Shown: positions 3,434 through 42,251 of the stretch, piece after piece
Layout: each line of letters begins with the position of its first letter
Position numbering within the stretch: the stretch's first letter is position 1
Assembly: GCA_035939775.1 (NCBI GenBank)
Contig: DASZFO010000297.1
Span: 1-42,251, forward strand
Direction: 5' to 3'
Source: Pirellulales bacterium
GTDB taxonomy: Bacteria > Planctomycetota > Planctomycetia > Pirellulales > DATAWG01
DNA: 42,251 bases
Made by a program: the position numbers and the translations under genes
Notes under the pieces: generated by a model
What the model saw: only the letters and a program-made list of their open reading frames with translations
The model's database searches: none
What the model was told of the DNA's origin: nothing

Positions 3434-6058
3434 ATGCGCATCAGGGCGACGCTCTTTAGGAGGCTATCCGAAAACCGCCTGCGGAGAGGGGGACAGTCCC
3501 CTTTTGTTGCGAAGACTCCACAAAAGGGGACAGTCCCCGGCGGTTTTCGGATAGCCTCCAAGGTCTTATTGATCGGCGGCGCGGCATTGATTCCTTCGGT
3601 TTTGGCACTATGGAATGCAGCGGCCGATGAAGGGGCGCCGAAGCCAGCCGACAAGCCAGCCGCCGTCGATAGCCCCGGCACGCTAACGAGCATTGCATTC
3701 GATCTGGGGGATGCCGGCGATCGGTTAACGCTCGCCGGCCGCGACTCGCGCCGGCAATTGCTCGTGACTGGAACCTATTCGACCGGGCAGGTTCGCGACC
3801 TGACCCGCGGCATCAGCTATTCGGTCGAGCCGGCCACGATCGCCAAGGTGGATGGCGCCGGCTTGATTTTGCCGCTCGCGGAAGGAGAAGCCACGATCAC
3901 AGCTAAGGATGCATCCGGCCCGAGCGCGACCGTGAAGCTGGGCGTCAGCCATTTGGTCAGCGACTTGCCGATCAATTTTCCGAATCAGATCGTCCCCGTA
4001 TTCACGAAGCTCTCGTGCAACAGCGGCGGGTGCCACGGCAAGGCGAGCGGGCAAAATGGCTTTCGACTTTCGCTCTTGGGCTTCGAGCCGAGTGAGGATT
4101 ACGACCATCTCGTGAAAGAAGGGCGCGGCCGGCGGCTATTTCCTGCCGCCCCTGAGCGCAGCCTGTTATTGATGAAGGCGACTGGCCAGGTGCCGCACGG
4201 TGGCGGCCAGCGGATGGAGAAGGATTCCATTCCGTACCGCCTGATCTATCGCTGGATCGAGCAAGGGCTACCGTTCGGCAAACCGGAGGATCCCAAGGTC
4301 AGCCAGATCGAGGTGTTGCCGACGATGCGCACTTTGCCGCCAAAGGGCCAACAGCAGTTGGTCTGCATCGCGCATTACACGGACGGCTCGACAGAGGACG
4401 TCACTTCGATGACCCAGTTCGAGCCGAACGACACCGAGATGGCCGAAGTCACTCCGACGGGGTTGGTGAAAGCCCGCGATTTGTCGGGCACGGTGGCAGT
4501 GATGGCGCGCTATCAGGGGCAGGTCGCGGTGTTCCGCGCGAGCCTGCCGCTGGGGGCCGTGGTGAAGGATTTGCCTGCGCCGAAGAACTTTATTGATGAA
4601 CTGGTCTTCCAGCAGCTTACGACGCTCGGCGTTCCGCCCTCAGTCAACTGCGACGATTCGACATTTCTCCGCCGCACTTCGCTGGACATCGCCGGCCGCC
4701 TGCCGACCGCCGAGGAGACCGAGAAATTCCTGGCCGACCCTGATCCGGCCAAACGCGAGAAATGGATCGATCGGCTCTTGGAGAGTGAAGCCTACGCGGA
4801 CTATTTCGCCAACAAATGGAGTTCAATCCTGCGGAACAAGCGGCAGCAGGAGAGCTTTGCCCACGGCACGTATCTCTTCCACGATTGGATTCGCCAAAGC
4901 CTCTACGAGAACAAGCCGTACGACCAGTTCGTGCGCGATATTCTGACGGCCTCGGGCGAGATGGGGGAGAATCCGCCGGTGGCCTGGTATCGCTCGGTGC
5001 GAGAGACGAACCAGCAAATGGAAGACACGGCCCAACTGTTCCTCGGCCTCCGGATTCAATGCGCCCGTTGCCATCACCATCCGTTCGAAAAATGGAGCCA
5101 GCAGGATTACTACGGCTTCGAGGCCTTCTTCTCGCGCGTCGGGCGAAAGAAGGGGATGCAAGTGGGCGAAGAGCGGATTTTCCATCAACGCGGCGTGGCC
5201 ACGGCCGTCAATCCTCGGAGCGGACAGACGGTGAAACCGGCCGGACTCGGCGCGAAGACGCTCGACCTGAGCGCCGATCAGGATCCTCGCCAAGCGCTGG
5301 TGGATTGGATGGCCGACTCCAAAAATCCCTTCTTCGCTCGGGCACTGGCCAACCGTTATTGGAAGCATTTTCTCGGCCGCGGGCTGGTCGAGCCGGAAGA
5401 CGACATGCGCGTGACCAATCCGGCCACGAACCCGGCCCTGCTCGATGCGCTAGCGAACGATTTCGCCGAGAGCAAGTTCGACCTCAAGCATTTGATCCGC
5501 ACGATCTGCAACTCGCGCGTCTATCAACTGAGCGCCGAGCCGAACCAGTTCAACGCCGGCGACAAGCAGAGCTACTCGCGCTACTATCCCAAGCGGCTCG
5601 AGGCCGAGTCGCTGTTGGACGCCATCGATCAGGTGACTGGGGTGGATGAAAAGTTCAACGGGCTGCCGGCGGGAACTCGTGCGATGCAATTGCCCGACAC
5701 GGGCTTCAATTCCTATTTCCTTACCGTCTTCGGCCGGCCGGAAGGGGCCAGCGCCTGCGAATGCGAACGGAGCAACGAGGCGAATCTGGCGCAGAGCCTG
5801 CACTTATTGAACTCGGCCGAAGTGCAAAACAAGCTGTCCGCAGCGAGCGGCCGGGCCGCGGCGCTCGCCGCCGACCAGCAGCACACGCACGCGCAGAAAA
5901 TCGAGCGGCTCTATTTGCAGTTCTATTCGCGCCGGCCCGCTCCCGAAGAAACGGCCTTGGCGGTCGCGCACATCGCCAAGACCAAGAACGACAAGGCGGC
6001 CTATGAAGACATCGTCTGGGCGCTGATTAATACCAAGGAGTTCTTATTCAATCATTAA
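3434..6058 (+). CDS. DUF1549/DUF1553 secreted protein with Ig-like and cytochrome c-type motifs
   Basis: This 874-aa protein is exported or membrane-tethered (hydrophobic segment ~42-62). Order: Big2-like Ig-like domain (~83-170), a CNSGGCH motif (CX4CH, residues 195-201) in a planctomycete cytochrome-like region, a second Big2-like domain (~288-373), DUF1549 (~385-590, with IDELVFQQL, FLRRTSLDIAGRLPT and a CARCHHHPFEKW block containing CxxCH) and DUF1553 (~625-860, with NRYWKHFLGRGLVEP and LLDALANDF). Such proteins are abundant in planctomycetes; their biochemical role is not established, although linked cytochrome motifs suggest redox function. A strong AAGGAGGA sits seven bases before ATG 3434. 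A palindromic repeat (3459-3559) is read in frame within the signal region, so residues ~9-42 are repeat-derived. First gene of a four-gene operon. Confidence 0.9.
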   Translation: MRIRATLFRRLSENRLRRGGQSPFVAKTPQKGTVPGGFRIASKVLLIGGAALIPSVLALWNAAADEGAPKPADKPAAVDSPGTLTSIAFDLGDAGDRLTLAGRDSRRQLLVTGTYSTGQVRDLTRGISYSVEPATIAKVDGAGLILPLAEGEATITAKDASGPSATVKLGVSHLVSDLPINFPNQIVPVFTKLSCNSGGCHGKASGQNGFRLSLLGFEPSEDYDHLVKEGRGRRLFPAAPERSLLLMKATGQVPHGGGQRMEKDSIPYRLIYRWIEQGLPFGKPEDPKVSQIEVLPTMRTLPPKGQQQLVCIAHYTDGSTEDVTSMTQFEPNDTEMAEVTPTGLVKARDLSGTVAVMARYQGQVAVFRASLPLGAVVKDLPAPKNFIDELVFQQLTTLGVPPSVNCDDSTFLRRTSLDIAGRLPTAEETEKFLADPDPAKREKWIDRLLESEAYADYFANKWSSILRNKRQQESFAHGTYLFHDWIRQSLYENKPYDQFVRDILTASGEMGENPPVAWYRSVRETNQQMEDTAQLFLGLRIQCARCHHHPFEKWSQQDYYGFEAFFSRVGRKKGMQVGEERIFHQRGVATAVNPRSGQTVKPAGLGAKTLDLSADQDPRQALVDWMADSKNPFFARALANRYWKHFLGRGLVEPEDDMRVTNPATNPALLDALANDFAESKFDLKHLIRTICNSRVYQLSAEPNQFNAGDKQSYSRYYPKRLEAESLLDAIDQVTGVDEKFNGLPAGTRAMQLPDTGFNSYFLTVFGRPEGASACECERSNEANLAQSLHLLNSAEVQNKLSAASGRAAALAADQQHTHAQKIERLYLQFYSRRPAPEETALAVAHIAKTKNDKAAYEDIVWALINTKEFLFNH
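3459..3559. repeat. Palindromic GGGGACAGTCCCC repeat, copy 1, inside the DUF1549 gene
   Basis: Outer arms ggaggctatccgaaaaccgcc (3459-3479, first 20 bases shown by the pairing) and its exact complement at 3539-3559 enclose a core with two ggggacagtcccc palindromes and a ccttttgt/acaaaagg pair. The whole element can fold into one long hairpin and is translated in frame as part of the neighbouring protein's N-terminus. Further copies lie at 34476, 35602, 36393 and 37224. Confidence 0.85.
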
Positions 6059-31469: not shown

Positions 31470-33575
<2,106 letters not shown>

Positions 33576-33585
33576 AATGGAAACC

Positions 33586-35580
33586 TTAATAAAGTTTGCC
33601 TTGGCCGGCGAGGAAGTGCTCCACAATCGGCCCCAGGCATTGCGCGGGAAAGAACGTCAAGGCGCCGACGATGACGATCACGCCGACCAATAGCACGGTG
33701 AATAGCGGCCCGTTGGTTGGAAACGTGCCCAGGCCCGGGGCCACCGTCTTCTTGCCCACCATCGAACCGGCGATCGCCAGCACGGGAACGATCATCAGAA
33801 ACCGCCCGGCGAGCATCACGATCGCTATCGTGACGTTCCAAAAATTCGTATTGGCATTGATCCCGGCGAACGCCGAGCCGTTGTTGCCGGCCGCGCTGGA
33901 ATAGGCATAGAGCATCTCCGAAAGCCCGTGCGGACCGTTGTTGTTGAGGGCCGAGCCCGTGGGGGCATGCTCTTTGTCGGAGTACCAATTGTCGGGCAGG
34001 TCGGGCACGGGCGCCTTATAGTCTGCCGGCGGTTTGGCCGGCGCCGGATGAGCCTTGGCGAAATCCGCTGCATAATCCGCGGCTCGCTTTTCGTAAACCG
34101 CCGACCAGCCGGCAAATCCGAGAATGATCGCCGGGAAAATCAGGATATAGAACATCGCGTACTTCATCTCGCGCGACTCGATCTTCTTACCTAGGTACTC
34201 GGGAGTGCGCCCGACCATCAGACCGGCGATGAAGACCGACAGGATGACGAACACGAGCATCGCATACAGCCCGGCCCCGACGCCGCCGAAGATCAATTCG
34301 CCGAGTTGAATGTTCGCCAGCGGCACCAGCCCGCCGAGCGGCGTGAAGCTGTCGTGCATGGAATTGACGGCGCCGCACGAGGTGTCGGTCGTCACGGTGG
34401 CGAACAGGGCCGAATTCGAGACGCCAAAGCGGACTTCCTTCCCCTCCATGTTCCCTTGCGGCTGAGCGATCTTGAAGCCTATCGGAGAACCGCTTGGGGA
34501 GAGGGGGACAGTCCCCTTTTGTTCCGAGGACTCCACAAAAGGGGACAGTCCCCGGCGGTTCTCCGATAGGCTCTTGGCCTTCTCCGCGACGGACGGAGTT
34601 GCCGCCGCCAGATCGGCCTCGAGCTTGTGGATTACCGGGTTGCCGCCGGATTCCGCCCAATAGGCGACGCTCACTCCCGTCAAAAACAAGAGCGACATCG
34701 CCGCGAAAATCGCCCAGCCCTGCCGTTGGTCGCCGGCCATGCTGCCGTAGGTGTAAGTCAAGGCGGCCCCAATGCTGAAGATCAACAGCAGCTCGACGAA
34801 ATTAGTCAGTGGCGTCGGGTTCTCGAACGGATGTGCGCTATTGGCGTTGAAGAATCCGCCGCCATTGGTGCCAAGTTCCTTGATCACTTCCTGCGAAGCC
34901 ACCGGGCCCATTGCGATGGTTTGCTTCCCGCCGTCGATGGTGGTCACTTCTTGATACGGCGAGAAGTTCTGAATGATTCCCTGCGTCACCAAAAACAGGC
35001 CGACCACGACGCTGATCGGCATTAACACGTACACGATCGAGCGAATCATATCGACCCAAAAGTTGCCGATCGTTCGCGCGGCGTCAGGGGCTAGGCGGCG
35101 TGTCAGCCCACGGGCCACCGCCAGCGCGACCGCAATCCCCGCCCCGGCCGATACGAAGTTATGCCACGCCAAGCCGGCCATCTCGCTGAGATAGCTCATC
35201 GTCGTTTCGGGCACGTACGACTGCCAATTCGTATTCGTGTTGAAGCTGACCGATGTGTTAAAGGCCAAATGTTCGGGCACTGCGGGCAATCCCTGCGGAT
35301 TGAGCGGCAAACGGTCTTGCAATCGCAGAATCCCATACGTGACGACGATGCCGAACAGACTGAACGCCAAGAGCGCCAGCGCATAGCGCTGCCAGGTTTG
35401 CTCGCGTTTTGGATCGACACCGCAAAGCCAATATAAAAACCGCTCGGTTGGCCCAAAGAACCGCGGCAGCGGTTGTTTCGAGCCTTCGAAGACTCGATAC
35501 ATGTACGCCCCGAGCGGCTTGGTGATCGCGAAGATCAGGACCGAAAACAGGCCGATTTGCAGCCAACCTTGCAGAGTCAT
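33586..35580 (-). CDS. kdpA: Potassium-transporting ATPase K+ channel subunit KdpA (kdp-1) with repeat-derived insert
   Basis: The 664-aa protein starts at ATG 35580 ([12 protein letters not shown]). The four K+-pore loops are clear: [51 protein letters not shown], and [15 protein letters not shown]. Typical KdpA is ~560-600 residues; the extra comes from a palindromic repeat translated in frame at residues ~336-368 ([16 protein letters not shown]..), between the AESGGNP and [10 protein letters not shown] landmarks in an extramembrane loop, and from a further insert before the fourth pore (~residues 510-550, [11 protein letters not shown]..). It channels K+ toward KdpB. Confidence 0.96.
34476..34573. 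repeat. Palindromic GGGGACAGTCCCC repeat, copy 2, inside kdpA
   Basis: The outer arms agcctatcggagaaccgc and gcggttctccgataggct enclose the same core as copy 1 (two ggggacagtcccc palindromes and ccttttgttcc..acaaaagg). Copy 1 reads gctatccgaaaaccgcc in its arm; the paired changes on both arms keep the stem intact. The frame is preserved and the repeat is part of the KdpA protein. Confidence 0.85.
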
Positions 35581-35699: not shown

Positions 35700-35789
35700 T
35701 TAAAAATGTTCGGGGCGCACGAGCGCGTAAAGAAGATAGATGGTCAACAGCACCGTGACGATGCCGCCTAAGAGAAACTCGATGTCCAT
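35700..35789 (-). CDS. kdpF: KdpF, small membrane stabiliser of the Kdp complex
   Basis: This 29-aa single-helix protein reads MDIEFLLGGIVTVLLTIYLL followed by YALVRPEHF, ending at TAA (35700-35702). The pattern of one hydrophobic helix followed by (L/Y)YALxxPExF at the C-terminus is diagnostic of KdpF, and it directly precedes kdpA. In E. coli KdpF sits at the edge of KdpA and stabilises the complex with lipids. It is too short for usual gene callers. Confidence 0.93.
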   Translation of the reverse strand: MDIEFLLGGIVTVLLTIYLLYALVRPEHF

Positions 35790-35831: not shown

Positions 35832-35915
35832 TTAGCAGTGCTCGCAGGCGCGAACGTATAGCCAACAGACCGCGAAAAATACAACGCAAGCGCTCACGAA
35901 AACTGTGTCCCACAT
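35832..35915 (-). CDS. 27-aa membrane peptide at the head of the kdp-1 operon
   Basis: The 27-codon frame (ATG 35915, TAA 35832) encodes MWDTVFVSACVVFFAVCWLY then VRACEHC: one hydrophobic helix with a short polar Cys-containing tail. Many kdp operons have an equally small helix peptide ahead of kdpF with a similar 'FF..A..YV..C' pattern (from memory, no search done). It lies 42 bases upstream of kdpF and about 44 bases after the predicted start of transcription, so it should be the first gene of kdp-1. Function unknown; it may be an additional stabilising helix or a leader peptide. Confidence 0.65.
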   Translation of the reverse strand: MWDTVFVSACVVFFAVCWLYVRACEHC

Positions 35916-35970
35916 AAACAGATTCCCCGCGTCGACTCTTGATTCCGAATAAACGTTGCCGGCAATGGAG

Positions 35971-35985
35971 GCAATTGGAGTGCCA
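35971..35985 (-). promoter_or_regulatory. Sigma-54 promoter for the kdp-1 operon
   Basis: On the minus strand the sequence is TGGCACTCCAATTGC. It has GG and GC doublets separated by exactly 10 bases and matches the consensus TGGCACG-N4-TTGC at all fixed positions except the G after TGGCAC. Transcription would start near 35959, about 44 bases before the 27-aa peptide gene. It implies that kdp-1 needs a sigma-54 activator, in line with the NtrC-type gene at 37431. Confidence 0.78.
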
Positions 35986-36063
35986 AACTCCTGGCGGACG
36001 CGCCAAGCAGCATCAGCGCAGCATCTTAAGGAACATTTACGCGGATGGCTTCCATCCCCGAGC

Positions 36064-36220
36064 ATTGCATCTTGCACTGAAGTCACGATGCGGCAATGCA
36101 AAATGCAATCACCGATCAGGATCGACTAAAGCCGCTAAGAGGACTGCGACCTGAGACATACCAGGCGACTGTTCGCTTCGACGCCCTGCAATTCGCAGGC
36201 GGAATATCGCAATATGCAAC
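36064..36220. promoter_or_regulatory. Candidate enhancer with four TGCAA-N2-TGCAA-type sites between divergent sigma-54 promoters
   Basis: Sites: 36064-36076 (TGCAAGATGCAAT on the minus strand), 36097-36109 (TGCAAAATGCAAT), 36187-36199 (TGCAATTCGCAGG) and 36208-36220 (CGCAATATGCAAC). Each holds two TGCAA-like half-sites 7 bases apart. The first two face each other as an inverted repeat. They lie ~105-260 bp upstream of both predicted start sites, the usual distance for NtrC-type activator binding, and their midpoint (36142) coincides with that of the two start sites. The binding protein is inferred. Confidence 0.5.
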
Positions 36221-36297
36221 CCGCCGGCGGACCGCGTCCGCGGCGATTGATTCTCGAAATCATTCCCCGCCACGGGCTTACGCGATCTTGATGGCCG

Positions 36298-36313
36298 CGG
36301 CACGCTCCTTGCT
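36298..36313 (+). promoter_or_regulatory. Sigma-54 promoter facing the orphan actuator-domain gene
   Basis: The plus-strand sequence is CGGCACGCTCCTTGCT, matching TGGCACG-N4-TTGCW at all fixed positions but the first. The GG-N10-GC spacing is exact. Transcription would start near 36324, leaving a ~290-base leader that contains palindromic repeat copy 4 before ATG 36614. Its divergent partner is at 35971-35985. Confidence 0.72.
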
Positions 36314-36392
36314 TTCATCCGAGTCGTCATTCGGTTCGTTGATCACGCGGCCCTGTTTAGAATTGCCGATCGATTCGCTGCCATCACGATTC

Positions 36393-36498
36393 AGAACCCC
36401 TCACAAAGCTGCCGGGGACTGTCCCCATTTTTGCGCAGTCCGCGGAGCAAAAACTGGGGACTCTCCCCTTCTCCCAGGCAGTTTTGTGGGGGGTTCTT
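36393..36498. repeat. Palindromic GGGGACTGTCCCC repeat, copy 4, in the leader of the orphan gene
   Basis: Arms agaacccctcacaaagctgcc and ggcagttttgtggggggttct pair with few mismatches around the same core as copy 3 (ggggactgtccccatttttgcgc .. gcaaaaactggggactctcccc). Its arms differ in sequence from copy 3 but again stay complementary to each other. Confidence 0.8.
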
Positions 36499-36613
36499 GG
36501 AGCACTTAACAATCCCTCTTGATGGCCGCGAGTTGTCGGTTTCTTTCTCTTCGCCCGAGAAAGGCTGCACGACCGGCGCCGCGGCCATCATTTTTTCTGC
36601 CGCAAGGTGTGCC

Positions 36614-37210
36614 ATGACCATCACTAATGTTCGCATCGCGCCGTACATTCGCGGTCCCGAACTTGATCCCGAATCGGTGAAAACGCCCTCACCGGCGAAT
36701 TGGATTCGTCGGTTGACGCGGCTTTGGGGCAGAGTTTTTGGAAACTCCACTGAATGCGGCGAGCAGCCTGCGATCGCTGCCTCGCCGGTTTCAAAAACGC
36801 ACTGGGCTTTCCGAGCGGTCAATTACCACCGACTTCACGCCGCGGGGATGCCGTGCGTAATCGCCGCGCCCTCGATCGCGGCCGGCATCTCGTCACATCT
36901 CGAACTCGAAGCGATCGTGCCGTCCGAATTGCAAGTGGGCGACGTCTTCCTCGTCGAGTCCGGTCAAACCATCTTTGCCGACGGCCTGATTCTCGAGGGA
37001 ATCGCCATAGTCGACGAGGCCGTCATTTCCGGCCAATCGGCGCCCGCCCTGCGTTCGGCCGATGGAGATAGCGCCGTCATGCGAGACAGCCACGTCATCG
37101 AAGGACAGATTCTAATCGAAGTGGCGCCCCGCCGCGGCCACCCACTGGATTGGATTAGCGAAGCGACCGTGGTCCGATGGCCGCCCGCGGCCGCTGTCGC
37201 TCGAAGATAG
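36614..37210 (+). CDS. Stand-alone KdpB actuator (A)-domain-like protein with inactivated TGES motif
   Basis: The 198-aa protein has no membrane segment. Residues ~102-180 align with the KdpB actuator domain: SELQVGDVFLVESGQTIFAD, GLILEGIAIVDEAVISGQSA (Kdp[40 protein letters not shown]), then PALRSADGDSAVMRDSHVIE matching the [18 protein letters not shown] region. The catalytic TGES loop, whose Glu drives dephosphorylation, is S139-G140-Q141-S142, so Glu is lost while the Ser is kept. Residues 1-100 are unassigned. AAGGTG lies seven bases before ATG 36614. The frame is open back to 36431 through a repeat. It runs divergently from kdp-1 behind a sigma-54 promoter and could bind or regulate KdpB; a decaying kdpB fragment is the alternative. 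Confidence 0.72.
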   Translation: MTITNVRIAPYIRGPELDPESVKTPSPANWIRRLTRLWGRVFGNSTECGEQPAIAASPVSKTHWAFRAVNYHRLHAAGMPCVIAAPSIAAGISSHLELEAIVPSELQVGDVFLVESGQTIFADGLILEGIAIVDEAVISGQSAPALRSADGDSAVMRDSHVIEGQILIEVAPRRGHPLDWISEATVVRWPPAAAVARR

Positions 37211-37430: not shown

Positions 37431-38822
37431 CTAGGCATCGCTTCGCTCCGGACCCTCGTATTTCTTCCGTTTTCGCCACAGCGTCGAGCTGTCGATGCCG
37501 AGGATCCGCGCGGCGTCGTCCAGTGTGGCGCTGCGCGCAAGCACGGAGAGAACGTGTTGGCGCTCGATCTCCTCCAGCGAGAAATCGCCCCCCAACTGCG
37601 GCGATGAGCCACTGCGCGAATGCATTCGCTCGGGCAAGGCTTGTGGCTCGACCACCTGCGCCGGCCAAAGGATGACGGCACGTTCCATCGCGTTGCGCAG
37701 CTCGCGAACGTTGCCGGGCCAGGCGTACGACAGCAGCACCTCTTCCGTCGCTTTCGACATTTCGGGCGTGGGCCGTCCGACCGAATGGCCGAAGAACGCC
37801 AGGAAGCGCCGCGCGAGAATGATGAGATCTTCCGGCCGCTCGCGCAATGCGGGAACGTGAATCTCGATCACGTTCAGACGAAATAGCAGGTCCTCGCGAA
37901 AATGGCCGGATTTCACATCGACTTCGAGATCGCGATTGGTCGCGGCGACCACCCGCACGTCGGCCTTGCGCGTGCGCGTCTCGCCGAGCCGCTCGAACTG
38001 CTTTTCCTGCAAGAATCGCAGCAGCTTAGCTTGCAGACCGGGAGTGATTTCGGCGATTTCGTCGAGAAAGAGCGTGCCACCTTCGGCCGCCTCGACGCGC
38101 CCCGGCTGATCGCGCACGGCGCCGGTAAACGCCCCTTTCGCATGACCGAAGAGTTCGCTGGTCAGCAGGTTCTCGGAAAGCGTAGGACAGTTGACAACGA
38201 CGAACGGCTTCGTGCGGCGCCGGCTTTGAGCGTGCAGGGTGCGGGCCAGCACTCCCTTGCCCGTGCCGCTTTCACCGCGCAGCAGCACGGCCACTTCCGA
38301 ATCGGCAGCCCGGCCAAGCACGTCGAGCGCCGCCTGCATTTTCGGCGACCGCGTCTCGAGCACTGTCTCGGGCACGGCCAGCTTGAGCTGCTGGTCGAGT
38401 TCGGCCAGTCGGCCGAGCGTGGCCATTCGTTCGGTGAGCTTGGCGACGAGGTGGCGGATCTGATCGGGCGTGAAGGGCTTTGGGAGATAATCGGCGGCCC
38501 CGCGCTTGATCGCCTCGACGGCCGTGTCGAACGTCGCGTAGGCAGTGAGCACCACCGCGGCCAGGTTCGGATTTTCAGCTAACAGCTTGGGCAGCAGATC
38601 CAGCCCGCTCGATTCGCCGATCTTGAGATCGACGAAGGCCACGTCGAACGGCCGCTGAGTGACCGCCGCCAAGGCCATTTCAGCCGAGGCCGAGGCAACT
38701 ACCTCGCAGCCGATGTCTTCCAGGCAAACGGCGAGCGTGCGACGGATGTTTTTTTCGTCGTCAACGACAAGCACCCGCAGGCCTCGCATCGAGGATGCGC
38801 CAAGTTGCTCGGGCCGGGGCAT
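37431..38822 (-). CDS. NtrC-type sigma-54-dependent response regulator
   Basis: The 463-aa protein (ATG 38822, GAGG seven bases upstream; an open extension to 38885 is unlikely) has a receiver domain (~14-125) with the acidic DDE pocket (VVDDEKN), phosphorylated Asp65 (AFVDLK) and Lys of the KPF motif. The AAA+ domain holds Walker A GESGTGKG (183-190), the sigma-54 contact loop GAFTGA (230-235) and Walker B LFLDEI. A Fis-type helix-turn-helix ends the protein (~415-460, [21 protein letters not shown]). It is placed next to the sigma-54 promoter of kdp-1 and downstream of kdp-2, and no OmpR-type KdpE is seen. I infer that it is phosphorylated by the kdp-1 kinase and activates the Kdp promoters. 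Confidence 0.93.
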
Positions 38823-38898
38823 GAAATCCTCGTGCCTATGCCGGAATAGCAAGGCAATCTGAAGGACGATTCGTGTGACAGCCAACGCGGAGGGGCCA

Positions 38899-39023: not shown

Positions 39024-39407
39024 TCACGATAACTCGTATTTCTTCCGCTTTCGCCAAAGGGTCGAAAGGTCGATGCCCAGGATGCGGGCCGCCTCGTCGA
39101 GCGTGCTGGTCCGAGCCAGGACCGCCGAAACGTGACGGCGCTCGATCTCGTCAAGCGTGAAGTCGCCGCCGAGATCCGGCAGGCATTGTGCATAAACCTG
39201 CACGGATTGGGCAAATGCTTGTGGGCCGACGTCAGACGCGCGCTCGATGGCGGGGAGCAATTGCTCGGGTGAACGTGCCGCCGCGGCCTCGCAGCCCGCG
39301 CCCGCAGCGTAGACCGCGAGTGAGATGCGATCCTCCTTGTTGTTGGCAATTGTGAACACGCGCACAGGTTGCGCGGAAGACCCGTTGGGTGAGTCGTGTC
39401 GCGCCAT
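39024..39407 (-). CDS. Shrunken NtrC-type regulator: degenerate receiver start fused to a Fis helix-turn-helix
   Basis: This 127-aa protein is homologous at both ends to the regulator at 37431 but lacks the AAA+ domain and most of the receiver. Residues ~15-58 (VRVFTIANNKEDRISLAVYA..GCE) align with [23 protein letters not shown]; the acidic pocket DDE is NNK, so phosphorylation is unlikely. Residues ~79-125 match its C-terminus in about 38 of 47 positions (LGGDF.L.EIER.HV...[25 protein letters not shown]). The reading frame survives across the junction. It lies 36 bases after kdpC of kdp-2, hence probably in that operon. It may bind the same sites without activating, acting as a repressor or decoy; it may also be a decaying gene. 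Confidence 0.75.
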   Translation of the reverse strand: MARHDSPNGSSAQPVRVFTIANNKEDRISLAVYAAGAGCEAAAARSPEQLLPAIERASDVGPQAFAQSVQVYAQCLPDLGGDFTLDEIERRHVSAVLARTSTLDEAARILGIDLSTLWRKRKKYELS

Positions 39408-39443: not shown

Positions 39444-40511
39444 TTACGGCTTGCCGCCGGTCGTCGCTCCGTATTTGTTGTCTAGTGCGAGGTTGATTTC
39501 CAGGACGTTGACCATCGGCTCTCCCCACGCGCCGCCCAGGGGAGCCGAACTCTTTTCCTTCAGCAAGGTTTCAATTTCGTCGTGGACCTTCTTCACGTCG
39601 GCCTTGGTGTCCTTGGCCCAGGCCCCGGCCACGCCATCCAATTGGAACATCGCGTTGGCCAAGGTGATGTGCGGATCGAGCCCGGAACCGGACGTTGTCG
39701 CCCAATCGCCGGGAACGTCGTTCAATTCAACAGTCGGATTGTCCGTCAGCCACATGTCGAAGAAATGCGCTTGGATGTCAGTCTGAGTATCGGAGCCCTT
39801 GTCGACAGGCTCGATGGCCGTCGTGCTGGTCTTGCCGTCAGCCGACATGTGGGTCACCGACGAGGGGAATTTGCCCGGATGCTCTTTAGAAAATGACTCG
39901 AAGAACACCATGGCCAAATCGGACGGCGAGGGATCGGAATTGTCGGGATTGTCTTTTTTGAACTTCTCGACGATTGCCGCGTGAGTCTTCTCCCAATCCA
40001 ACACATACTGCTGCTGCGGCGTGGGATTCTTGGCATCGAATGTCGTGCCGACCCATCCCTGGGCCACACTGTTGTGGAGATCGGCCCATTGGGCCACGAT
40101 CGACGGCTGGCCTTGGAATTTATCCTTGTGGAACCATTCCTCGACATCGGGAGCGACATTCTGGTCCTTCTTGGGACCGGTCTTATACGTGACGACCGGG
40201 CCGAGCGCATTGGCTACGCGATCCCGCAGCGCATAATTCGACACCGCCAGCGCCGACGACGTGGACGAAGTCGCATCGTAGGGCGTCGAGATCGCCGAGG
40301 GGCGCGGCGTAAAATGCTCGGGTTTCGCAAATGGCTGGGCGATCAACAACGATCCCACAGGCTTGCCGTCCGGTCCGTTGACGATGCTGCCGTTGGCCTG
40401 GAAGGGAAACACGGTCTGGCCGATTCCCCACAGTACCAGCGGATAGATGACGCAACAGATGACGACCGAAAAGAGCAGAAGCCAGAGGCTCTTGGAAATG
40501 ATTTTGAACAT
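39444..40511 (-). CDS. kdpC: KdpC subunit with a ~165-residue insertion (kdp-2)
   Basis: The 355-aa protein starts at ATG 40511 (GGAG about nine bases upstream). TM ~7-29 and KdpC landmarks are present: FQANGSIV, GSLLIAQPFAKPEHFTPRPSAIS, ALAVSNYALRDRVA at the front; SGSGLDPHITLANAMFQLDGVA and LGGAWGEPMVNVLEINLALDNKYG at the back. Normal KdpC is ~190-210 aa. Between the two halves is an extra region (~residues 100-265) rich in Trp, Asp and Lys (VEEWFHKDKFQGQPSIVAQW) that I cannot assign. It lies outside the membrane and could add a ligand or partner site. It follows kdpB-2 by 28 bases. Confidence 0.92.
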   Translation of the reverse strand: MFKIISKSLWLLLFSVVICCVIYPLVLWGIGQTVFPFQANGSIVNGPDGKPVGSLLIAQPFAKPEHFTPRPSAISTPYDATSSTSSALAVSNYALRDRVANALGPVVTYKTGPKKDQNVAPDVEEWFHKDKFQGQPSIVAQWADLHNSVAQGWVGTTFDAKNPTPQQQYVLDWEKTHAAIVEKFKKDNPDNSDPSPSDLAMVFFESFSKEHPGKFPSSVTHMSADGKTSTTAIEPVDKGSDTQTDIQAHFFDMWLTDNPTVELNDVPGDWATTSGSGLDPHITLANAMFQLDGVAGAWAKDTKADVKKVHDEIETLLKEKSSAPLGGAWGEPMVNVLEINLALDNKYGATTGGKP

Positions 40512-40539: not shown

Positions 40540-42251
40540 TCAGGCCATGTGCAGGGCGACCATCATCGGGTAAATCACGACGTCGATTAATTTGATGCCG
40601 ATGAACGGCAGGACTACGCCGCCTAGACCCCAAATCAGCAGGTTCTTGCGCAGCAGCGCATCGGCCCCCAGCGGCTGATACTTGACCCCTCGCAACGCCA
40701 CTGGAATCAAGGCCGGGATGATCAAAGCGTTGAAGATCACCGCCGACAGGATGGCCGAGGTCGGCGTATGCAGATACATGATGTCGATCTTCTTCAGCCA
40801 CGGCAGCGTGCCGGCGAACAGCGCCGGGATAATCGCGAAATACTTCGCCACGTCGTTGGCGATCGAGAAGGTCGTCAGCGCGCCGCGGGTCATCAGAAGC
40901 TGCTTGCCGATCTCGACGACTTCGATCAGCTTGGTCGGGTCGCTGTCGAGGTCCACCATGTTGGCCGCTTCCTTTGCGGCCTGGGTGCCGGCATTCATCG
41001 CGAGCGCGACGTCGGCCTGAGCAAGAGCGGGGGCGTCGTTGGTGCCATCGCCCATCATGGCGACGAGCTTACCTTCGGCCTGCTGCTTCCGCAGGTATTC
41101 CAGCTTGGTTTCGGGCGTGGCTTGCGCGACGAAGTCGTCCACTCCGGCTCGCTTGGCGATGGTGGCTGCCGTGAGCGGGTTGTCGCCCGTGATCATGACA
41201 GTTCGAAGCCCCATCTTTCGCAGCCGCTCGAAGCGCTGTTCCATCTCGGGCTTGAGAATGTCCTCGAGCACGATGACGCCCTTGATCTGATTTCCTTCGC
41301 AGACGGCCAGGGGCGTGGCGCCTTCCGACGCAATGCGCTCAACGACTTTGGTCATTTCCGTTGGCACCATGCCCCGCTCCGCTTGGACAAACCTCGCGAT
41401 CGCGTCGGGCGCGCCCTTGCGAATCCGTCGACCGTCGTCGAAATCGACGCCGCTCATCCGCGTTTGCGCGGAGAACGCGACGAATTGGGCCGAGGTCGGT
41501 AGATCAGCGTGGTTCTTGGCTTGTCCCTCGTAAAGTTTGACAATGCTTTTCCCCTCCGGCGTCTCGTCCGCCGCCGAGGACAGAGCGGCCAATCGGCCAA
41601 CCTCTTCGCTCGAATGATTGCCGACGGGTATGAACTGAGTCGCATGGCGATTGCCCACCGTGATCGTTCCGGTCTTGTCGAGGAGCACAAGATCCACGTC
41701 GCCGGCCAGCTCGACCGCCTTGCCGCTCTTGGCGATGATGTTCGCCTGGAGCGCCCGCTCCATGCCGGCGATGCCGATCGCGGCCAACAGCGCGCCGATT
41801 GTCGTTGGGATCAAGCAAACCAACAGGGCTACGAGCGTGGGGACGTCGGTGCCGAGGCTGTGCAACGGGTCCGAAGAAAGGCCAAATTGACCCACCATGT
41901 ACTGTTCGGCTTGGTAAGCCATCGGCCACAGCGGGATGACAACGATAAGAAAGATCAATGTCAAGGCGGAGAGGGCCAGAGTGAGCGCGATCTCGTTCGG
42001 GCTGCGTTGGCGAATGGCGCCTTCCACCAGTGCGATCATCCGATCGAGGAATGATTCGCCGGCCCCGCTCGTGATGCGAACCACGATCCGGTCGGAAGTG
42101 ACCGTCGTGCCGCCGGTGACACCGGAGCGGTCGCCGCCCGATTCGCGGATCACGGGGGCCGATTCGCCGGTTATCGCTGACTCGTCGATCGAGGCGATCC
42201 CTTCGATGATCTCGCCGTCGCCGGGAATGACTTGTCCCGCCTCGACGACAA
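40540..42251 (-). CDS. kdpB: Potassium-transporting P-type ATPase KdpB, second system (5' end beyond window)
   Basis: The frame is open from the right window edge ([20 protein letters not shown]..) to the stop at 40540, so the N-terminal membrane part is missing but ~570 residues are visible. TGES is intact (ITGESAPV), and [31 protein letters not shown], and [12 protein letters not shown] are present, so the pump is likely active. Compared with kdp-1 KdpB it has a longer loop after the second membrane pair ([16 protein letters not shown]). kdpF and kdpA of this set should lie just outside the window. It is part of an operon with the long kdpC and probably the shrunken regulator. Confidence 0.96.

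Follow-up and report, generated by a model that had tools for sequence, protein, structure and literature searches.

A free-standing and probably retained KdpB-type actuator domain between two kdp clusters of a Pirellulales bacterium

A single actuator domain beside the kdp genes

The window under study (the whole stretch of 42,251 nucleotides analysed) carries a 198-aa open reading frame that lies between two kdp clusters and is divergent from the first of them, kdp-1. The frame and its kdp neighbors comprise the following features.

31470-33626, minus strand: kdpB-1, intact, with a normal TGES motif (profile match, alignment)
33586-35520, minus strand: kdpA-1, conserved part of the open frame (profile match)
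36604-36609, plus strand: Shine-Dalgarno-like AAGGTG, 4 nt 5' of the ATG (sequence reading)
36614-37210, plus strand: 198-aa ORF with a C-terminal KdpB-type actuator (A) domain (frame, profile and PDB sequence matches)
36890-37141, plus strand: A-domain segment, residues 93-176 (alignment, codon bias, core pattern)
37028-37039, plus strand: SGQS, residues 139-142, the TGES equivalent, with Gln for the dephosphorylating Glu and the Ser kept (alignment)
37431-38885, minus strand: full-length sigma-54 response regulator, its gene converging on the A-domain ORF (profile matches)
40540-42251, minus strand: kdpB-2, cut by the contig end, with a normal TGES motif (profile match)

An earlier note on this DNA had described the frame as encoding a soluble protein with a plausible ribosome-binding site and a KdpB-like A domain. 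The frame is open as described, the AAGGTG element provides the Shine-Dalgarno-like sequence, and solubility is consistent with a sequence that, as read, contains no transmembrane segment; the domain assignment holds for residues ~93-176 but not for residues 1-92. Pfam E1-E2_ATPase (PF00122) matches residues 98-170 at 40.4 bits (gathering score 28.1), with profile positions 15-85 of 181 covered, and the top NCBIfam model is kdpB (TIGR01497; residues 87-175, 46 bits, E 2e-12), the rival P-type models scoring lower (generic 37 bits, heavy-metal 36 bits). The TIGR01497 score lies below the equivalog cut-off of 527.9 bits, the ORF being a single domain and not a full-length pump, and both the DKTGT phosphorylation motif and the N domain are absent from the frame. 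Its best PDB sequence matches are likewise KdpB chains (E 2e-9). With a KdpB alignment as input, AlphaFold2 places strands at residues ~100-130 and 160-170 with pLDDT >90, and the top Foldseek match of this model is KdpB of KdpFABC (E 8e-6); the confidence of the A-domain model stems from the alignment supplied, single-sequence folding of the ORF being uninformative (pLDDT 32).

A search for the gene beside kdp in other planctomycetes found no stand-alone relative. The protein searches drew on overlapping sets that together amount to roughly 1,100 genomes: this genome, 58 relatives, and 397, 398 and 334 genomes from the order, the class and the phylum, respectively. In these sets all other matches are full-length pumps or fragments, the latter including reading frames cut at contig ends, and a degenerate-pattern scan of the genome contigs likewise recognized no stand-alone relative. 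The single other genome of the family lacks the ORF, and the kdpB genes of this genome itself number three, two of them complete and the third cut by a contig end. A narrow search of the literature returned no description of a truncated KdpB or of a natural free-standing P-type actuator domain.

The neighboring kdp genes have features of their own. A copy of a dispersed palindromic element (34504-34553) sits in frame within kdpA-1 and adds ~28 residues to a loop, in the manner of the Rickettsia palindromic elements found in genes. Ahead of KdpF (MDIEFLLGGIVTVLLTIYLLYALVRPEHF) lies a second small membrane ORF, which ends in ACEHC (the pair at 35832-35915 and 35700-35789, minus strand), and a comparable small ORF with the ending ACEHV lies close to the kdp genes of genome G001. 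KdpC-2 (39444-40511, minus strand) is 355 aa long, a ~140-residue insertion splitting its match to the KdpC profile; the KdpC of G001 (344 aa) likewise matches the profile in two stretches.

Loss of KdpB-type constraint and retention of the fold

In E. coli the pump is inhibited when the TGES serine is phosphorylated, and the E161Q exchange blocks dephosphorylation (PMC7535926; PMC9651954); the identity of the kinase that acts on this serine is discussed as an open question (PMC7535926). The ORF presents SGQS at this position, and its serine aligns with phosphorylated Ser162 of E. coli KdpB, as the earlier note had read it. That reading of a changed TGES captures one alteration among several: 14 of 33 near-invariant KdpB sites are altered in the A-domain segment, the VTGGT and SD loops being lost alongside the Glu-to-Gln exchange, and a model with KdpB site rates fits the segment ~20 log units worse than one with uniform rates. 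The segment is thus released from KdpB-type constraint.

What the segment shares with KdpB (TIGR01497) is the A-domain alignment itself, the Gly, Asp-Gly and Gly-x-Ser-Ala-Pro (GxSAP) signature residues and the Ser162 equivalent, all without a frameshift; what separates the two, beyond the SGQS motif and the lost loops, is the absence of transmembrane, P and N domains and the possession by the ORF of its own N-terminus. The same Glu-to-Gln exchange is present in the KdpB-E161Q and Ser162 variants (eLife 2020, PMC7535926), where it blocks dephosphorylation in the pump, but those proteins are full pumps engineered in the laboratory whereas the ORF is a natural, free domain. The isolated A domains of CopA and ATP7A (PDB 2hc8, 2kij), which are structural matches to the model of the ORF, demonstrate that a P-type A domain is able to fold by itself once excised; these, too, are laboratory constructs, from the metal-pump family, in contrast to the natural gene described here.

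Against every KdpB compared, third codon positions of the ORF are close to saturation, which leaves dN/dS without power for the A domain; the same observation rules out a recent copy of a kdpB from this genome. Retention was therefore judged from other properties of residues 93-176. Every one of the 22 core sites that are hydrophobic in KdpB is still hydrophobic in the ORF, and the conserved polar, Gly and Pro sites are 15/28 identical and 13/28 changed. In neutral-decay simulations, whose sources are surrogates and not the true ancestor, the core pattern and the polar changes arise jointly in ~0.25-0.4% of runs; with six kdpB sources and 0.2-0.3 substitutions per site, the open frame, codon bias and GC3-GC2 contrast arise together in 0-3.2% (<=0.5% for most sources, up to 3.2% for the most favorable), figures to be read as those of mutually dependent tests chosen after the sequence had been seen. 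Synonymous codon bias of the segment is 0.298 (adjoining genes, 0.24-0.45). An LG-type exchange model gains 2.5-5.5 log units over neutral codon change with no stop penalty counted, the absence of stops adding a further 1-2 log units. These tests, post hoc as they are, agree in suggesting that residues 93-176 have been kept for their fold and freed from the catalytic role that the domain has in the pump.

The N-terminal half and the upstream region

The remainder of the ORF and the sequence that leads into it contain the following features.

35970-35985, minus strand: sigma-54 promoter-like site TGGCACTCCAATTGCC, upstream of kdp-1 and divergent (consensus match)
36063-36115, no strand assigned: TTGCA/TGCAA repeats between both sigma-54-like sites (sequence reading)
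36298-36313, plus strand: sigma-54 promoter-like site CGGCACGCTCCTTGCT, with one mismatch, the top-scoring site of the window
36390-36498, plus strand: dispersed palindromic element with ~40 copies in the genome, between the sigma-54-like site and the ATG
36520-36596, plus strand: strong terminator-like stem-loop with a T6 tract after it, its end lying 17 nt 5' of the ATG (-41.3 kcal/mol, z -5.0)
36614-36889, plus strand: N-terminal 92 residues, no detectable homologue, the coding signal before codon ~61 being weak or absent
36698-36739, plus strand: predicted cationic amphipathic helix NWIRRLTRLWGRVF, residues 29-42 (hydrophobic moment)

Residues 1-92 match the KdpB profile no better than shuffled sequences do (151/300 and 259/300 shuffles score equally), which rules out the homology to KdpB TM1-TM2 at which a multiple alignment had hinted. 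Among 392 genomes of the phylum the region has no credible relative; two weak matches were discarded, one being an antisense frame of another gene and the other running through stop codons. Codons 1-60 show neither codon bias nor coding signal, hence the true start is uncertain and may lie downstream, perhaps at the ATG at 36848, which lacks a good Shine-Dalgarno sequence. The view of the earlier note that this is a retained gene and not debris gains support for the A-domain half (from its intact core, codon bias and open frame) and is weakened for the N-terminal half. The helix predicted at residues 29-42 has a hydrophobic moment of 0.94, equaled by 0/2000 shuffles, with a chance expectation of ~0.014 per 198-aa frame over six-frame translations of the window; having been noticed first and tested second, it is suggestive of a possible membrane-surface anchor.

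The sites at 36298 (plus strand) and 35970 (minus strand) are the two best sigma-54-like sites of the whole window, and the kdp genes of G001 and those on C312 of this genome likewise have such sites upstream. By chance, 0.41 sites with <=1 mismatch are expected per whole window, so that the 36298 site is made notable by its position beside kdp. The TTGCA/TGCAA repeats may form an activator-binding region. The ORF had been credited with its own sigma-54 promoter opposite kdp-1: the consensus site is there, ~300 nt upstream of the ATG, but the palindromic element and the terminator-like hairpin intervene, and since the T6 stem-loop could end or attenuate a transcript the promoter assignment is unproven. 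Rfam recognizes no family in the upstream region, returning only a match to SgrS below its gathering score.

Two further repeat features were seen. A 14-nt direct repeat, TCTTGATGGCCGCG, occurs at 36286-36299, where it abuts the sigma-54-like site, and again at 36517-36530, where it forms the stem of the T6 hairpin. Elsewhere in the window, the GGGGACTGTCCCC element has a further paired copy at 3489-3538, close to the beginning of the 874-aa ORF at 3434.

A shortened regulator nearby and the possible action on Kdp

A second shortened derivative of a Kdp-cluster protein lies 2 kb from the A-domain ORF, between kdpC-2 and the full sigma-54 response regulator.

39024-39407, minus strand: 127-aa mini-regulator, made up of the N-terminal receiver part and the Fis-type HTH that belong to the kdp sigma-54 response regulator but lacking the AAA+ domain

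Leaving aside a 62-aa frame at the beginning of a G149 contig, the mini-regulator is a free-standing ORF in this genome only. It is 38% identical to the full regulator in the receiver remnant, where the conserved acidic DD has become NN, and 81% identical in the HTH; the receiver and HTH regions of full-length regulator orthologues differ by less (31-42% against 49-51%), from which it follows that the HTH has probably been under selection since truncation while the receiver has relaxed. The HTH halves of the two regulators show dN 0.14 and dS 1.07 (dN/dS ~0.13), with codon-position identities of 0.87, 0.89 and 0.51. The mini-regulator could be a competitor at kdp activator sites. That a truncated derivative has been kept at this locus raises the prior for the A-domain ORF having been kept as well; equally, it tells of a region that has seen duplication and loss.

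On balance we regard the ORF as probably a retained protein. More tentatively, and with somewhat less than even confidence, we read it as a fold-preserving, catalytically dead A-domain protein derived from a KdpB-type pump, which would be co-produced with Kdp from the region under sigma-54 control, be held near the membrane through its N-terminal amphipathic helix and act in trans on Kdp regulation; action on Kdp is itself a possibility that we hold at no greater strength. The free domain would not be a working actuator, and a decoy or antagonist is a more plausible role than that of a substitute: such a role fits best because the core and the GxSAP stretch are kept while the catalytic Glu and the adjoining conserved loops are lost. 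Loss of the loops around TGES also makes it less likely that the protein docks on the P domain of KdpB as a replacement for the resident A domain, the competition that the earlier note had proposed. One form of antagonism would be competition for the kinase that inhibits KdpB through TGES serine phosphorylation, although in this specific form we consider the proposal unlikely.

Decay offers a different account, to which we assign an appreciable but clearly smaller probability than to retention: the ORF would be the remnant of a further kdpB copy, left amid the duplications of the clusters and still open through luck and GC richness. It is a singleton among the genomes searched, the altered near-invariant sites and the rejected KdpB site rates are what decay would leave behind, dispersed repeats flank the ORF on either side, and the flanks look as non-coding as the first 60 codons do; under neutral substitution alone, moreover, the 82 aligned codons stay free of stops in 15-33% of cases. 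Decay would, however, require ~0.3 substitutions per site, after which the wholly hydrophobic core, the codon bias and the GC3-GC2 contrast are improbable, and it sits poorly with a segment that has no frameshift and is not a recent copy of any KdpB compared. Other frames flanking the ORF contain no kdpB debris, the KdpA matches there being the dispersed repeat.

The evidence for a retained fold would serve equally well if the protein had been co-opted outside Kdp, for example as a membrane-surface scaffold, its position beside kdp telling of its origin only; the lost KdpB-specific loops and the amphipathic helix suit such a role, but the location between two kdp clusters, the pair of sigma-54-like sites in common with kdp-1 and the kept GxSAP stretch do not, and we think it improbable. 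Still a little less probable is that a short RNA or leader (~36325-36596) is transcribed from the sigma-54-like site up to the T6 hairpin, the ORF being expressed by read-through (attenuation) or from another promoter. The stability of the stem-loop (-41 kcal/mol, z -5), its six T and its position 17 nt 5' of the ATG all speak for this, and an upstream region that belongs to no Rfam family is compatible with it; conservation of the hairpin was seen in no relative, and a simple-terminator scan did not pick the long stem.

Returning to the reading of a retained protein that acts on Kdp, the mini-regulator lends support to the view that truncated versions of the proteins of this locus are retained there for regulatory use. 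In its fullest form, which we regard as a long shot, the kdp locus would make antagonists by truncation, a dead actuator working on the pump or as a kinase decoy and an AAA+-less regulator occupying activator sites without opening the promoter. Single-domain microproteins of plants and animals are likewise short, derive from one domain of a larger protein and are placed to interfere with their parent; they differ in usually being interaction or dimerization domains, and interference by the ORF is hypothetical.

Should the ORF act on Kdp, it would represent a P-type pump regulated in trans by one of its own domains in excised form, and it could open a way to the kinase responsible for inhibiting KdpB at the TGES serine. 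If the locus does make antagonists by truncation, it would constitute a microprotein system through which a bacterium controls a P-type ATPase. The AAA+-less regulator nearby makes the locus a compact place in which to study regulators that arise by truncation.
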